A stretch of DNA of 64,000 bases, from assembly GCF_003096675.1 (NCBI RefSeq), contig NZ_QEKW01000006.1, positions 62,001 through 126,000 on the forward strand, read 5' to 3'. Origin of the DNA: Actinomycetospora cinnamomea. GTDB taxonomy: Bacteria > Actinomycetota > Actinomycetes > Mycobacteriales > Pseudonocardiaceae. Position 1 is the first letter of the stretch; the number at the start of each line of letters is the position of its first letter. This document shows, one piece after another, positions 37,934 to 49,877 of the stretch. Below the pieces are notes generated by a model, which ran no database searches, was not told the DNA's origin, and saw only the letters and a list, made by a program, of their open reading frames with translations. The position numbers and the translations under genes were made by a program.

Positions 37934-39730
37934 TCAGCCGACCATGACGTGGTCCGGCGGGGCCGCGGTGACCGCGGGCAGGCGCAGCCGCACGGCCGTG
38001 CCGACGCCGGGGCGGGTGTCGACGTGGACGTCGCACTGCGAGCCGAACGCCGCGCGCATCCGGCGGGAGACCTCGGCGATGCCGCCGTGGCGCTGGTCGA
38101 CCTGGGACGCGGCCCGCGTGGCCTCCGGACCCATGCCCGCGCCGTCGTCGGACACCGTGATCACGCAGTCGGATCCGGAGCCGGCGGCGAACACGCTGAC
38201 CGCCCCGCCGCCGGGCACCGGCTCGATGCCGTGGCGCACGGCGTTCTCCACGAGCGGCGCCACCACGAACGGCGGCACGAGGACGCCGCGGACCTCGGGC
38301 GCCACGGCGACCTCGGCTCGCAGCCTGGCACCGAACCGGGCCTGCTCGAGCGTGAGGTAGCGCTCGGCGTTGTGCAGCTCGTCGCCGACCGTGGTCATCT
38401 CCCCGCCGGAGCGGAACGAGTAGCGCGTGAAGTCCGCGAACTCGGTGAGCAGCTCGCGGGCCCGGCCCGGGTCGGTGCGCACGTAGGACGCGATCGCGGT
38501 GAGCGTGTTGTGCACGAAGTGGGCCGAGAAGCGCGAGCGCAGCGCCGACTCGACGTCCGCGGGCGACGGCGCGGCCACGATCGAGGGGTCGAGCGGGGCG
38601 TCGCTGCGTCTACCGGTGACGTCGGTGCCGGCGCGGCGGATCGGGGCGCCCGGCGCCTCGGGGCCGTCGGTGGTCTCGAGCTCGTCGAGCTCGAGGTCGG
38701 TGTCGACCACCGGGGCGGCCAGCACGGGCGCGGCCACCGTCGCCGGGTGCGAGGGACGCAAGCCCTGCCACGTCGGGCGCTCGAGCAGCCCCGTGGCGGT
38801 CCAGCGTCGGTGCTCGACCTGGCCCACGAGCCGCGGCGCGAGCCAGCGGGCGGCCCCGCTCGCGTCCTCGGGCAGGGTGGCGTCGAACGGGCTGTCCGCG
38901 CGTTCGAGCGTCGCCAGCAGCCCGTCGAGCTCGCGACGTGCGCCGGCCGTGATGCCGGTGACGACGCGGCCGGAGTAGCGCAGCCCCGACTCCCCGGGGA
39001 CGCCGACGAGCAGCGCGCCGACGGTGTCGGGTCGCCCGCGCGCCGGGAGCCAGCCACCGACCACGACCTCCTGGGTGCGCCGCACCGGCGTCTCGATCCA
39101 GCTGCGCGAGCGCCGGCCGGCCTGGTAGGTCGACTCCAGGCGCTTGGCGACGACGCCGTCGAGCCCGTAGCGCCGCGCCGTGGAGATCACCGCCTCGGCG
39201 TCGACCCCGGTGAAGCACGGCGGGATGACCACCCTGCTGCCGGAGAGGTCGAGCTCGGCGAGCAGCTCGCGCCGCTGCCGGTAGGGCAGGCGCCGCGTCG
39301 ACGCGCCCGCGACCTCGAGCACGTCGAAGACGTAGTAGGAGACGGGCACCTGCGCCTGCAGGACCTCCGAGGGGTGGGCCACGCGGTGGCGCCGGCGCAG
39401 CTTGCCCGCGCTCGGCCGGCCGACGCCGTCGAGGGCCACGACGACCCCGTCGAGCACCAGCCCGCTGGTGCTCGTCCACGGGGCGAGCACCCCGAGCTCG
39501 GGGAAGTGCGACGTGACGTCGCGCCCGGCCTCGGTGACCAGGCGCAGGCCGTCGGGCTCCGTGCGGGCGAGGCAGCGCAGACCGTCCCAGAGGAACTCGA
39601 AGGCCCAGCCCGCGCCGCGCGGGACGTCGCCGCTGCTGGCGATCATGGGACGGTGGGGCGAGGCCTCGGTGCTCGCCGCGTCGGGCGGCGCGGTGTCCGT
39701 GAGGGTCGCCAGACGTGCCACCCGCGCCAC
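37934..39730 (-). CDS. DNA-ligase-like (catalytically degenerate) module fused to a LytS-type histidine kinase
   Basis: One open frame, 598 residues from GTG 39730; GTG 39721 fits the upstream GGGGGAGG better. Residues ~30-215 follow an ATP-dependent DNA ligase adenylation domain: FEFLWDGLR (44-52) replaces the KxDGxR motif with Leu at the lysine position, LDGVVVALDG (93-102) has Val for the motif III Glu, YVFDVLE is IIIa, DGVVAKR (191-197) is motif IV and RSRSWIETP (207-215) lacks the motif V lysines. An OB-like domain runs ~216-328, ending RWTATGLLERPTWQGLR. After a linker comes a complete kinase: AHFVHNTL with His404, N-box PLVENAVRHG (492-501), DDGAGMG and RHGGIAEV. No membrane segment. 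Presumably a cytoplasmic sensor that uses the ligase fold to bind DNA, RNA or nucleotide. No response regulator is adjacent. A TACCGT hexamer (39782-39787, minus strand) may be its -10. Confidence 0.85.
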   Translation of the reverse strand: MARVARLATLTDTAPPDAASTEASPHRPMIASSGDVPRGAGWAFEFLWDGLRCLARTEPDGLRLVTEAGRDVTSHFPELGVLAPWTSTSGLVLDGVVVALDGVGRPSAGKLRRRHRVAHPSEVLQAQVPVSYYVFDVLEVAGASTRRLPYRQRRELLAELDLSGSRVVIPPCFTGVDAEAVISTARRYGLDGVVAKRLESTYQAGRRSRSWIETPVRRTQEVVVGGWLPARGRPDTVGALLVGVPGESGLRYSGRVVTGITAGARRELDGLLATLERADSPFDATLPEDASGAARWLAPRLVGQVEHRRWTATGLLERPTWQGLRPSHPATVAAPVLAAPVVDTDLELDELETTDGPEAPGAPIRRAGTDVTGRRSDAPLDPSIVAAPSPADVESALRSRFSAHFVHNTLTAIASYVRTDPGRARELLTEFADFTRYSFRSGGEMTTVGDELHNAERYLTLEQARFGARLRAEVAVAPEVRGVLVPPFVVAPLVENAVRHGIEPVPGGGAVSVFAAGSGSDCVITVSDDGAGMGPEATRAASQVDQRHGGIAEVSRRMRAAFGSQCDVHVDTRPGVGTAVRLRLPAVTAAPPDHVMVG

Positions 39731-39906
39731 CTCCCCCGACCGGCTCGCCGCATGCCGGCGGGGTGATCGCCGGCACCCACCACGGTATCCGCGTGGCCCG
39801 ACGGTGACACCGTCCTCGGCGACGCGGCGCGCGGCAGCTGCGACCGGGGAGCAGCGAGACGCGACGAACGGCGCAACGGTCCCTGGCGCGGCCGGGCGAG
39901 GAGGGG

Positions 39907-40737
39907 TCAGGCCGCCAGTCCGGCGGCGACGACCGTCGAGGGACGTGCGGGCACGGGACCGGCCGGCTCGACCGACACCGCGTACCCGCGCGGCGCGGGC
40001 GCTCCGGGCGCCGGGGGCCCGGTCGGTGCCCCGAGCGGGCGTGTCACGCCGTCGGACGGGTCCATGACTGCGACGGCCTCGGGCACGTTGCCGGGCAGCC
40101 CGGTGGCCCAGAGGACGTAGTCGTGGGCCGGTGGTGCGGGCGGCATCGCGAGCGGCACGAGGCGGACCGGGGCGGCGGCGTCCGCAGGGTCGAGGACCAC
40201 GGCGGCCGCGTCGCCGCGCTCGCCGCGCAGGACGGCCGAGCGCAGGGACGGGTCGCGGGAGCGGGCGTCGGCGACCACGCGGTCGGCCTGCTCATCGAGA
40301 GCTGCGGCCGGGGTGTCCGGGGCTCCGCCCTGCGTGGACAGCACGCCCCCGGCGACCACCAGCCCGAGCCCGAGCACGACGGCGACGACGAGCCCGCCCA
40401 CCAGGCTGGGCCACCGTCGACGGGGGCGGTCGATCGGGGCGGCACCGGGGGGCGGGTCGAGCTCCGGGCCCGCGACGCGGGGCGGTGCGGGTCGCGCGGG
40501 CCGCGGCGGCGCGGGCTCGGCGAGCACGGCGTCGAGGACCCGCCGGCGCAGCGGGGGCGGCGGGTCGACCTGCGGCACCGCCGCCCCGAGGGCGGCGCCC
40601 ACCTCGAGCGCCTCGTCGAGGGCACGCCGGCAGGTGGCGCAGCTCGCCAGGTGGTCCCGGAGCGCAGCGTCCTCGTCCGGTTCGAGCGCGGAGAACGCGC
40701 CGCCGACGGCGTCGGCGGCGCGCGGGCAGGCGCTCAC
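39907..40737 (-). CDS. Zinc-containing anti-sigma factor, RskA-like, without adjacent sigma gene
   Basis: 276 residues from GTG 40737 (VSACPRAADAVGGAFSALEP). The N-terminal anti-sigma domain has H29-x3-C33-x2-C36 (DHLASCATCRRAL). A Pro-rich linker leads to one membrane segment (~125-148, LVGGLVVAVVLGLGLVVAGGVL) and an extracellular RskA-type domain (HDYVLWATGLPG, PEAVAVMDPSDG). It should hold an ECF sigma factor (SigK/SigL-like) at the membrane until proteolysis. No sigma gene is found on either side, so the partner is elsewhere or lost. Confidence 0.82.
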   Translation of the reverse strand: MSACPRAADAVGGAFSALEPDEDAALRDHLASCATCRRALDEALEVGAALGAAVPQVDPPPPLRRRVLDAVLAEPAPPRPARPAPPRVAGPELDPPPGAAPIDRPRRRWPSLVGGLVVAVVLGLGLVVAGGVLSTQGGAPDTPAAALDEQADRVVADARSRDPSLRSAVLRGERGDAAAVVLDPADAAAPVRLVPLAMPPAPPAHDYVLWATGLPGNVPEAVAVMDPSDGVTRPLGAPTGPPAPGAPAPRGYAVSVEPAGPVPARPSTVVAAGLAA

Positions 40738-47991: not shown

Positions 47992-48693
47992 TCAGAACAG
48001 CGTGTCGTGCTGGGGAGTGCGCTCGCGGCGGGCGTGCCGGGGACGGCGGCCCGAGGTCGTGGCGGGGGCCTCGCCGGTGCCCGACGCCGAGGACAGCAGC
48101 GTGGGCGGGGCCGAGGTCGGGGCCGTGGGGGCCACGCGTACCCAGTCGCCACCCGAGTCGCCCGGGCGGTAGGGCGTGCCCCGGCGCTTGGCGATGACCC
48201 CCGACAGGCGCTGGGCGACCACCCCGGCGAGCAGGGCCGGGCCGTCGTCGTAGGCCGGCGAGATCTGGATGCGGGTGGCCCGGGACAGGTCGAGGCGCGA
48301 GAGCACGGCCCGCCGTTCCTCGAGCGGGCGGGGGTCGAGCGGCACGCCGTAGAGGCGCACGACGTCGTAGACCATGAACACGGCCGGCCGGGCGCGCGCC
48401 AGGGCGCGGGCGCGCTGGGCGTCGGACACCTGCAGGCGCTCGCCCAGCGCGTCGGCCGAGGGGCTGCCCCCGTCGAGCATCACGGCCTCGCCGTCGAGCA
48501 GCCCGTCGGCGACGGCGTCGACGAGGCCGGAGAACTCGGGGAAGCGGGCGGTGACGTCCTCGCCGTCCGCAGTGCGCAGGGTCAGCACGCCCTCGTCGAC
48601 GTCGGCGAGCAGCCGGACGCCCGCCCAGTCGACCTCGTAGCTCCAGGCGCCCTCGACCGGCAAATCGCCGGGGACGGGGAGCATCGGCAGCAC
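47992..48693 (-). CDS. Degenerate ATP-dependent DNA ligase adenylation domain protein
   Basis: 233 residues from GTG 48693 (ATG 48684 is possible). It follows a LigD/LigC-type adenylation domain: SYEVDWAGVRLLAD (18-31), where motif I KxDGxR reads D22-W-A24-G, so the nucleophilic Lys is Asp. Also LLDGEAVMLDG (65-75, motif III intact), FMVYDVVRLYG (IIIa), LSGVIAKRRGTPYRPG (motif IV with Ser for Glu) and GDWVRVAP (motif V without Lys). There is no OB domain; the end is a low-complexity tail. Divergent from ku with a 152-base gap. It probably binds, but cannot adenylate or seal. Confidence 0.8.
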   Translation of the reverse strand: MLPMLPVPGDLPVEGAWSYEVDWAGVRLLADVDEGVLTLRTADGEDVTARFPEFSGLVDAVADGLLDGEAVMLDGGSPSADALGERLQVSDAQRARALARARPAVFMVYDVVRLYGVPLDPRPLEERRAVLSRLDLSRATRIQISPAYDDGPALLAGVVAQRLSGVIAKRRGTPYRPGDSGGDWVRVAPTAPTSAPPTLLSSASGTGEAPATTSGRRPRHARRERTPQHDTLF

Positions 48694-48845: not shown

Positions 48846-49877
48846 ATGATGCGCGCGATCTGGAACGGCGCGGTGTCGTTCGGGCTCGTGAACGTGCCGG
48901 TGCGGCTCTACGCCGCGACCACGAACCACGACATCCGTTTCCACCAGGTGCACGAGCGCGACGGCGGGCGCATCCGTCAGAAGCGGACGTGCTCGGTCTG
49001 CGGCGAGGAGGTCCAGTACTCCGAGATCGCCAAGGGCTACGAGACCGACGACGGCCAGCTGATCATGCTCGACGACGACGACCTGTCGACGCTGCCGGTG
49101 GCGACGGGGCACGAGATCGACGTCGTCCAGTTCGTCCCGTCGGACCAGATCGACGCCCTGCTCCTCGACAAGAGCTACTACCTGGAGCCGGAGAACAAGG
49201 CGGTCAAGCCGTACGCCCTGCTGCGTGAGGCGCTGCGCGAGACCGACCGCATGGCGGTGGTCAAGGTCGCGCTGCGGCAGCGGGAGACGCTGGCGCTGCT
49301 GCGGGTGCGTGACGAGGCGATCGTGCTGCAGACGATGCTGTGGCCCGACGAGGTGCGCGAGCCGGAGTTCGAGACCCTGCGCACCGAGGTCGACCTCCGG
49401 CCGCAGGAGATGCAGATGGCGTCCTCGCTGGTGGAGAGCCTGTCGGGGGACTTCGAGTCCGACCAGTTCGAGGACGAGTACCGCCAGGCGGTGGTCGAGC
49501 TCATCGAGTACAAGCGCGAGCACGGCGGGGGGCGCCCGGCCCCCGAGCCGGCCGCCGCCGACGACGGTGACGACATGACCGACCTGCTCACCGCGCTGCG
49601 CCGCAGCGTCGAGGCGGCCGGCGGCAAGGCCCCTGCCGAGGAGCCCGCGGCGGCGTCGGACCAGGGCGCCACGGCGACGGCGACGGAAACGGAGACGGAG
49701 ACGCCGGCGGAGGAGAAGCCGAAGCGGGCCCGTTCCCGCACGAAGAAGACCGAGGAGAAGACGGAGGAGAAGCTCGAGGAGGAGACCCCGAAGAGGACCC
49801 GGCGCTCCTCGTCGAAGAAGAAGGACGAGGACGAGGAGGCCGCGCCGGCCAAGGGGCGACGCAGCAGGAGCGCCTGA
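48846..49877 (+). CDS. ku: Ku protein, non-homologous end joining
   Basis: 343 residues from ATG 48846 (or 48849). Forms a homodimeric ring on DNA ends and recruits LigD. Starts RAIWNGAVSFGLVNVPVRLYAAT; core HQVHERDGGRIRQKRTCSVCG, VVQFVPSDQIDALLLDKSYYLEP, MQMASSLVESLSGDFESDQFEDEYRQAVVELIE. A long tail from ~235 ends with Lys/Glu repeats (TKKTEEKTEEKLEEE, KKKDEDEE), like the extended C-termini of Streptomyces and mycobacterial Ku that bind DNA. The neighbouring ligase-like gene is degenerate, so the functional LigD must be elsewhere. Confidence 0.96.
   Translation: MMRAIWNGAVSFGLVNVPVRLYAATTNHDIRFHQVHERDGGRIRQKRTCSVCGEEVQYSEIAKGYETDDGQLIMLDDDDLSTLPVATGHEIDVVQFVPSDQIDALLLDKSYYLEPENKAVKPYALLREALRETDRMAVVKVALRQRETLALLRVRDEAIVLQTMLWPDEVREPEFETLRTEVDLRPQEMQMASSLVESLSGDFESDQFEDEYRQAVVELIEYKREHGGGRPAPEPAAADDGDDMTDLLTALRRSVEAAGGKAPAEEPAAASDQGATATATETETETPAEEKPKRARSRTKKTEEKTEEKLEEETPKRTRRSSSKKKDEDEEAAPAKGRRSRSA

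Follow-up and report, generated by a model that had tools for sequence, protein, structure and literature searches.

A LigD-type ligase module without its catalytic motifs, fused to a LytS-type histidine-kinase core in Actinomycetospora and related genera

A gene of 598 codons in Actinomycetospora cinnamomea (Pseudonocardiaceae) joins a putatively inactive DNA ligase module to a LytS-type histidine kinase. The gene lies in a 64,000-nucleotide window, the whole stretch analysed here (assembly GCF_003096675.1, contig NZ_QEKW01000006.1, positions 62,001–126,000 of the forward strand), and coordinates below are window positions. A first-pass annotation of the window had proposed that the ligase part, having lost its chemistry, serves as the sensor of the kinase.

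The fusion gene and its family

The frame is open end to end over 598 codons, from a GTG start to the stop, with zero interruptions. The true start is probably 39721, three codons downstream, because the first GTG sits within a Shine-Dalgarno-like stretch (by eye, in the upstream alignment). Four Pfam matches exceed their curated cut-offs: DNA_ligase_A_M (residues 39–212, 7.7e-20), DNA_ligase_A_C (235–326, 2.2e-16), His_kinase (PF06580; 396–470, 1.7e-16) and HATPase_c (489–586, 6e-9). Ligase and kinase domains alone score above cut-off in the window protein, and no 5TMR-LYT membrane input was found in it. By sequence search, the nearest solved structures are the LigD ligase domain for residues 27–328 (6nhx, 6nhz and 1vs0; E 1.8e-56 to 8.5e-56) and histidine kinase 6swj for residues 399–586 (1.3e-17). 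An AlphaFold2 model built from 65 sequences, with a mean predicted local distance difference test score (pLDDT) of 81.4, replaced an earlier 15-sequence model (pLDDT 57). Ligase and kinase parts are both well folded in the model, and residues 338–397 are almost entirely disordered (pLDDT <50 over 338–388 and 390–397). The features of the gene are as follows.

37934..39730, minus strand: ligase/histidine-kinase fusion gene, 598 amino acids (open reading frame from GTG to stop, Pfam, homologues)
39086..39649, minus strand: dead nucleotidyltransferase (adenylation) domain, residues 28–215 (Pfam DNA_ligase_A_M; model blocks mostly pLDDT >90; ratio of nonsynonymous to synonymous substitution, dN/dS, 0.12)
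39590..39592, minus strand: Leu47 codon, aligned with the adenylated Lys (K481 of Mycobacterium tuberculosis LigD; structure-sequence and family alignments)
38735..39085, minus strand: OB domain, residues 216–332 (Pfam DNA_ligase_A_C; motif VI RPD[K/R] replaced by RPSH)
38555..38719, minus strand: disordered, fast-evolving linker, residues 338–392 (pLDDT, dN/dS)
38321..38545, minus strand: DHp (His_kinase) domain, residues 396–470 (Pfam, family alignment)
38519..38521, minus strand: phospho-acceptor His404, with Asn408 four residues on (HxxxN; 52 of 52 aligned rows)
37967..38320, minus strand: CA (HATPase_c) domain, residues 471–588, with N-box, G1 and G2 present (Pfam, alignment, dN/dS)

The single uninterrupted frame described in the first-pass annotation, which gave no strand, was recovered on the minus strand, and the motifs quoted there (FEFLWDGLR, LDGVVVALDG, SWIETP and AHFVHNTL) are read in frame exactly as given. 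The checks it suggested agree with it: the N-terminal half matches ligase and OB profiles and the C-terminal half His_kinase and HATPase_c, the same architecture was recovered full-length in further genomes, and LigD ligase structures are the top Foldseek hits of the model. By sequence, the ligase match is present, no frameshift divides the gene, and the catalytic Lys is absent from the homologues.

A scan of one genome per species gave 335 matches, of which the best 80 were kept. Among these 80 are 11 named Actinomycetospora loci at 64–87% identity, all with uninterrupted frames, and two Pseudonocardiaceae loci from metagenome-assembled genomes that carry both parts. A family scan covered 297 Pseudonocardiaceae genomes, with matches listed down to about E 1e-95. 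The fusion was found in 50 of 56 genomes of four genera, here g1, g63, g90 and g11. Genus g1 can be equated with Actinomycetospora, since the contig coordinates of A. lutea locus L043 are those of the match in G381; 17 of its 18 genomes have the fusion, one of the 17 being cut by a contig edge. The fusion is present in 10 of 11 g63 genomes, both g90 genomes (three copies) and 21 of 25 g11 genomes (the spans of 20 g11 members were checked); g11 may conceivably be Pseudonocardia. No match listed to about E 1e-95 from the other 42 genera reaches the kinase part, a depth at which a more divergent fusion could be missed.

A tree of 65 ligase domains places its 21 fusion members in a single clade (support 100/99), nested within Pseudonocardiaceae ligases and separate from the host's own LigD. 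Within it, g1 groups with g11 (97/92) and g63 with g90 (100/98). These results point to a real family of single origin. Selection was estimated by a simple Nei-Gojobori method on nine Actinomycetospora genes (36 pairs). The linker has a median dN/dS of 0.64, against 0.12 in the adenylation domain, 0.21 in OB, 0.09 in DHp and 0.07 in CA; the folded domains are thus under purifying selection, and selection preserves the dead ligase module.

A frameshift or assembly error at this locus was rejected on the full-length homologues in the 11 named loci and the 50 genomes and on the purifying selection. One fusion copy beside Ku, from Dino_bin20 (L049/L178), is irregular in sequence at its end and downstream of motif I, perhaps through frameshifts in the metagenome-assembled genome. 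A broader explanation, that the gene is a chance fusion, a decaying functionless gene or an assembly artefact, could draw on those irregularities and on g11, where both catalytic centres are degenerate. It is already contradicted by the occurrence in four genera as one clade, the intact frames of the named genomes and the dN/dS of 0.07–0.21 across the folded domains in Actinomycetospora, and is highly improbable.

The ligase module

Active-site residues of LigD, with roles taken from the excerpted text of PMC8656161, were mapped onto the fusion via alignment to solved LigD structures. The fusion alignment has 52 rows representing 50 distinct proteins (duplicates L129=L179 and L045=L130 were retained). 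It omits L118, which has the same contig position as L041, and L180, whose contig ends before the kinase part; L119–L127 were unused (those compared by position coincide with named loci), and G392 was left out. L133 is cut by a contig edge and motif I is uncovered, leaving 51 rows at K481, R501 and E530. Non-fusion controls were drawn from 66 named-contig ligases. In 3 of these an in-frame stop interrupts the matched region, and 51 of the remaining 63 were aligned.

The K481 equivalent is Lys in none of 51 fusion rows, its place being taken by Ala, Val, Ser, Gly, Leu, Thr, Arg or Asp. Neither the R501 equivalent nor the motif III E530 equivalent is kept in any of 51 rows; the latter is Val96 in the window protein. 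At motif V, the K635 equivalent (Glu213 in the window protein) is Lys in 3 of 52 rows. Of the same 52 rows, 11 have Glu at the E613 equivalent. Each of K481, R501, E530, E613 and K635 is conserved in 51 of 51 non-fusion relatives, and the motif I Lys was seen in all 66 named-contig non-fusion ligases. The K637 equivalent is Lys in 0 of 52 fusion rows versus 38 of 51 non-fusions, and H465 is His in none of the 51 non-fusion ligases; these two positions are less informative because both vary or are absent in non-fusion ligases too. Motif VI RPD[K/R] was found in none of the fusion rows read (seven rows were caught elsewhere and are unread), and D[K/R] is present in 35 of 39 named-contig control ligases read and 12 of 14 others. 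NCBIfam TIGR02779 (NHEJ_ligase_lig) scores the fusion at 203.4 bits, below its cut-off of 227.75, and the host genome's own LigD at 268.8.

The loss of the catalytic Lys, the motif III Glu and the motif V lysines claimed in the first-pass annotation is confirmed at Leu47, Val96 and Glu213. An active ligase was rejected on motif loss, and the alignments support a LigD-type ligase fold without its catalytic motifs. The fusion resembles the LigD ligase domain of M. tuberculosis (1vs0, 6nhx, 6nhz) in its homology over adenylation and OB domains (residues 27–328, E about 1e-56), its Foldseek ranking, its place among Pseudonocardiaceae ligases and its retained adenine and ribose contacts. Unlike LigD, it lacks the catalytic Lys, the motif III Glu, the motif V Lys pair and motif VI RPD[K/R], falls below the TIGR02779 cut-off, and has a kinase attached and no polymerase or phosphoesterase domain. 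It shares with LigC and other stand-alone ligases of non-homologous end joining (NHEJ), such as Streptomyces ligC/ligD, a ligase domain on its own, in several paralogues per genome (excerpted text of PMC5124664). Stand-alone and LigD ligases differ in keeping the Lys (66 of 66, and 13 of 13 whose motif was read) and in having no kinase domain.

LigD ligase structures rank first in Foldseek with root-mean-square deviations (rmsd) of 12–14, because the model sets the two ligase domains at another angle than the crystals do. Human ligase 1 structures with nicked DNA superpose on the model with rmsd mostly 3.6–4.6; the modelled domain arrangement is therefore of the clamp type, which may be a modelling preference and is no proof of DNA binding.

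The adenine and ribose contacts are kept in the fusions: E479 in 51 of 51 rows, R486 in 50 of 51 and R629 in 52 of 52. The K618 equivalent is Lys in 44 and Arg in 8 of 52 rows. The motif IIIa Phe is replaced by Thr, Cys, Ser, Ala or Gly in g11 rows. Phosphate handling is thus lost, and the part of the pocket that faces the nucleoside survives, in g11 less completely. There is a precedent in a Lys481-to-Met LigD ligase, which, according to the excerpted text of PMC8656161, still has ATP bound in its crystal.

Such a pocket might read AMP, NAD, another adenine compound or a 5'-adenylated DNA end, and not the break itself. The retention of adenosine-facing E479, R486, K618 and R629 with loss of R501, K635 and K637 is consistent with a small-molecule sensor, and LytS-type kinases can sense metabolites, as with BtsS and pyruvate in the excerpted text of PMC10653868. 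Against this, the OB domain, which would serve no purpose in such a sensor, has been retained under constraint; g11 has replaced the motif IIIa Phe, and the linkage to Ku described below would be left unexplained. We regard small-molecule sensing as quite unlikely.

The kinase half and the Ku neighbourhood

H404, F405 and N408 are invariant in all 52 fusion rows. The H-box, N-box, G1 and G2 are all kept in the window protein and in Actinomycetospora, and the complete LytS-type kinase with phospho-His, N-box and G-boxes that the first-pass annotation described is borne out there. In HisKA-family kinases, according to the excerpted text of PMC5727384, phosphatase activity resides in the His and in the residue four positions later (HxxxT), and by analogy the rule might carry over to the LytS-type HxxxN.

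The host genome (G000) has two LytS-type kinases, the fusion and a stand-alone one at C6:283938. Like the stand-alone kinase and Escherichia coli BtsS, the fusion has PF06580 and HATPase_c with an H-F-x-x-N H-box. It differs in its input, a dead ligase in place of the weak GAF-like input of the stand-alone kinase and the 5TMR-LYT of BtsS (excerpted text of PMC10653868), in having no LytTR gene nearby, in Ala for Pro before the His, and in CA decay in sister genera. Identity to the resident kinase is 68% over DHp and 46% over CA for the window protein, and 49–51% and 16–25% over the same domains for three g11 members.

Bacterial NHEJ is usually described as Ku plus LigD. Neighbouring genes were taken from a simple open reading frame caller, and their boundaries and by-eye names are approximate. 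The following features lie around the fusion gene in the window.

48846..49877, plus strand: Ku, 9.1 kb from the fusion gene (Pfam PF02735, 4e-51; TIGR02772 above cut-off)
47992..48693, minus strand: second, unfused dead ligase, divergent from Ku, with Lys replaced by Asp (EVDWAGVR)
39907–40737, minus strand: anti-sigma-like gene preceding the fusion (Actinomycetospora loci)
39782..39787, minus strand: TACCGT, a conserved -10-like hexamer (upstream alignment)

Linkage of the fusion to Ku was found in two of the four genera. Ku lies directly upstream on the same strand at 10 of 10 g63 loci (confirmed by Pfam on L174), and the distance from the Ku stop to the start of the fusion profile is -50 to +82 nt, as expected of an operon. 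In g90, Ku and the fusion are tail to tail in two of three copies, 8 and 68 nt apart.

The second dead ligase consists of the adenylation domain alone, without an OB match in Pfam. Homologues occur at L178 and L179; the gene is divergent from Ku in the window and at L178, and a called open reading frame lies between the two at L179 (G232). One of the two Ku-facing g90 copies also has a second dead ligase beyond Ku. The host genome has two Ku genes and a LigD in LIG-PE-POL (ligase, phosphoesterase, polymerase) order with the motif I Lys intact.

A possible role in end joining

We tentatively favour an adaptor role linked to NHEJ: the protein would recognise DNA ends or Ku and, by way of DHp, act probably on a LytTR regulator. 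We put this at somewhat less than an even chance. The LigD-type module, stripped of its adenylation motifs, is tethered by the flexible linker to the LytS-type DHp-CA unit and would act as a binding head, clamping DNA ends, nicks or a Ku-DNA complex without sealing. The linker would pass occupancy on, the DHp dimer would change state, and the dimer would act on a response regulator with receiver and LytTR domains (REC-LytTR). The regulator would most likely be, in Actinomycetospora and g63, the one served by the stand-alone LytS kinase. The Actinomycetospora fusion would probably be both kinase and phosphatase, and in lineages without a full CA it would be a phosphatase or phosphate acceptor only. 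The net effect would be to couple unrepaired breaks to a two-component pathway. Both break sensing and signalling are proposed here from comparisons of sequence and gene order. A break-signalling pathway, in which recognition of DNA ends or of the Ku complex by the pseudo-ligase controls how far a LytTR regulator is phosphorylated, and in which some lineages have discarded the kinase half to leave a DNA-gated phosphatase, is doubtful.

The choice of regulator follows from gene counts and DHp similarity, LytTR being the receiver family surveyed. The host genome has two LytTR matches: a receiver-LytTR gene at C6:278693, about 5 kb from the stand-alone kinase, and C1:946041, in which a receiver was not seen by eye. 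Two other Actinomycetospora and three g63 genomes have two LytS-type kinases each and one LytTR match each, 2–6 kb from the stand-alone kinase. The regulator shared with the stand-alone kinase is most likely the natural target in these two genera, and another LytTR protein could serve in g11 and g90.

Several results weigh against the adaptor reading, beginning with the kinase. The N-box Asn and G1 are kept in g63 and g90, where HATPase_c still matches three of three proteins scanned, and the ATP lid is shortened or missing. Of the 52 rows, 32 have the N-box Asn; the 20 without it are all g11, where the lid has gone as well and G1 is degenerate in most cases. Scans of four g11 proteins for HATPase_c gave nothing at E 0.1 or better in any of the four. 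Given the pairing of g1 with g11 and g63 with g90 on the ligase tree, CA decayed at least twice if the full kinase is ancestral. This decay argues against an obligatory kinase, and the conserved core would be the dead ligase plus DHp and not the kinase reaction. Before the phospho-His, where Pro is usual, Actinomycetospora has Ala and g11 has Gln. Stand-alone kinases compared across genera are also more alike in DHp (71–81%) than in CA (64–76%), and the window DHp is 70% identical to a kinase of another genus versus 68% to the resident one; the likeness is thus to the kinase family and not specially to the resident kinase. The interpretation in the first-pass annotation is thus partly supported: the dead ligase fold joined to a complete kinase stands for the window and Actinomycetospora, and a plain sensor-kinase reading is weakened by the lids of g63 and g90 and by the g11 proteins scanned, which have no recognisable ATPase domain.

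Distance from Ku is a second difficulty. The three Actinomycetospora genomes examined have Ku 9.1 kb (window), about 9 kb (G232) and about 14 kb (G360) from the fusion, and Ku is not near the g90 copy L168. No Ku was found in the fetched flanks, some of them short, of 20 of 20 g11 loci; Ku is elsewhere in the genome in seven of seven g11 genomes searched, and the g11 neighbours are metabolic- and helicase-like genes. The first-pass proposal of a detector for nicked or broken nucleic acid gains independent support from Ku linkage in g63 (10/10) and g90 (2/3) and none in g11 (0/20), and would remain a matter of interpretation.

A LytTR regulator gene next to the fusion was rejected: in all 11 fusion-bearing genomes searched, the LytTR matches are on other contigs or lie over 150 kb from the fusion. 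Other neighbours were viewed through similarity clustering and selected Pfam scans, and regulators of other families may sit beside some fusions. In g11 and g90, where five genomes were searched, there are three to five LytTR matches per genome, and one to three of these have no LytS kinase beside them; sharing of a regulator with the stand-alone kinase is therefore not a general rule.

Upstream of the fusion, TACCGTGG does not vary between the window and all 11 named Actinomycetospora loci, and GTCG begins 15 bases before it in the same regions. No match to a LexA-type pattern was found in the 12 upstream regions. A PafBC-type pattern at a fixed distance from TACCGTGG matches at 4–7 of 9 positions, and with two or fewer mismatches it has 54 matches in the 64-kb window. 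Matches this weak are common, and no damage-inducible promoter of LexA or PafBC type stands out above chance.

The main rival to the adaptor is a structural or inhibitory NHEJ factor, in which the dead ligase would compete with or scaffold LigD at Ku-bound ends and DHp-CA would only dimerise, with no phosphotransfer. The Ku linkage, the second dead ligase beside Ku and the LigD with an intact motif I Lys in the same genome suit it, as do the CA that is unrecognisable in all four g11 proteins scanned and the shortened or missing lids of g63 and g90. A pure dimeriser would not be expected to need H404 and N408, yet these are invariant, and CA is the most constrained domain in Actinomycetospora (dN/dS 0.07), with N-box, G1 and G2 kept. 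We consider this rival possible and, on balance, unlikely.

If the break-signalling pathway were true, the fusion would to our knowledge be the first case of a DNA-joining enzyme turned into the input of a two-component system, and would link end joining directly to transcription. Searches of open-licence papers brought up no account of a signalling output from bacterial NHEJ. Among the papers they listed, none describes a ligase-histidine kinase protein or an NHEJ-linked histidine kinase in its title or the opening lines of its abstract, in agreement with the first-pass statement that no two-component sensor with a ligase input had been described. The main text of PMC5124664 contains neither "kinase" nor "inactive", and that of PMC7719229, a comparative survey of bacterial NHEJ, contains neither "histidine kinase" nor "Actinomycetospora". 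A conserved dead ligase with a histidine-kinase core, in places abutting Ku, makes signalling from the NHEJ complex directly testable with few proteins, and the graded natural series (full kinase, short-lid and CA-less) separates the role of DHp from that of the kinase.

Further observations concern the neighbourhoods. At most g11 loci (L147–L166) the fusion belongs to a conserved block that also contains three gene clusters, named by eye as GH65-like (about 786 amino acids), HAD-hydrolase-like (about 244) and helicase-like (about 845). The stand-alone LytS kinase (L193, G000:C6:280500-287500) adjoins an Fpg/Nei-like DNA glycosylase gene that scores below curated cut-offs, and is also near a peptidase-like gene and the LytTR gene; L188, L190, L191 and L192 have the same glycosylase-like neighbour by eye. 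The glycosylase would be a DNA-repair-like neighbour for the same pathway. Two g2 genomes, G014 (L191) and G162 (L192), have split LigD-like genes roughly 10–15 kb from LytS/LytTR genes (by eye and match), a possible source neighbourhood for the fusion. At 10 of 11 named loci (L037–L046, L048) a gene of 217–256 amino acids directly precedes the anti-sigma-like gene; it is missing in the window and at L037. It is an extracytoplasmic function sigma factor by Pfam in L038, the sole locus scanned, and its nearest relative in the host genome is C1:2482 (63% identical). The window anti-sigma factor may be an orphan.

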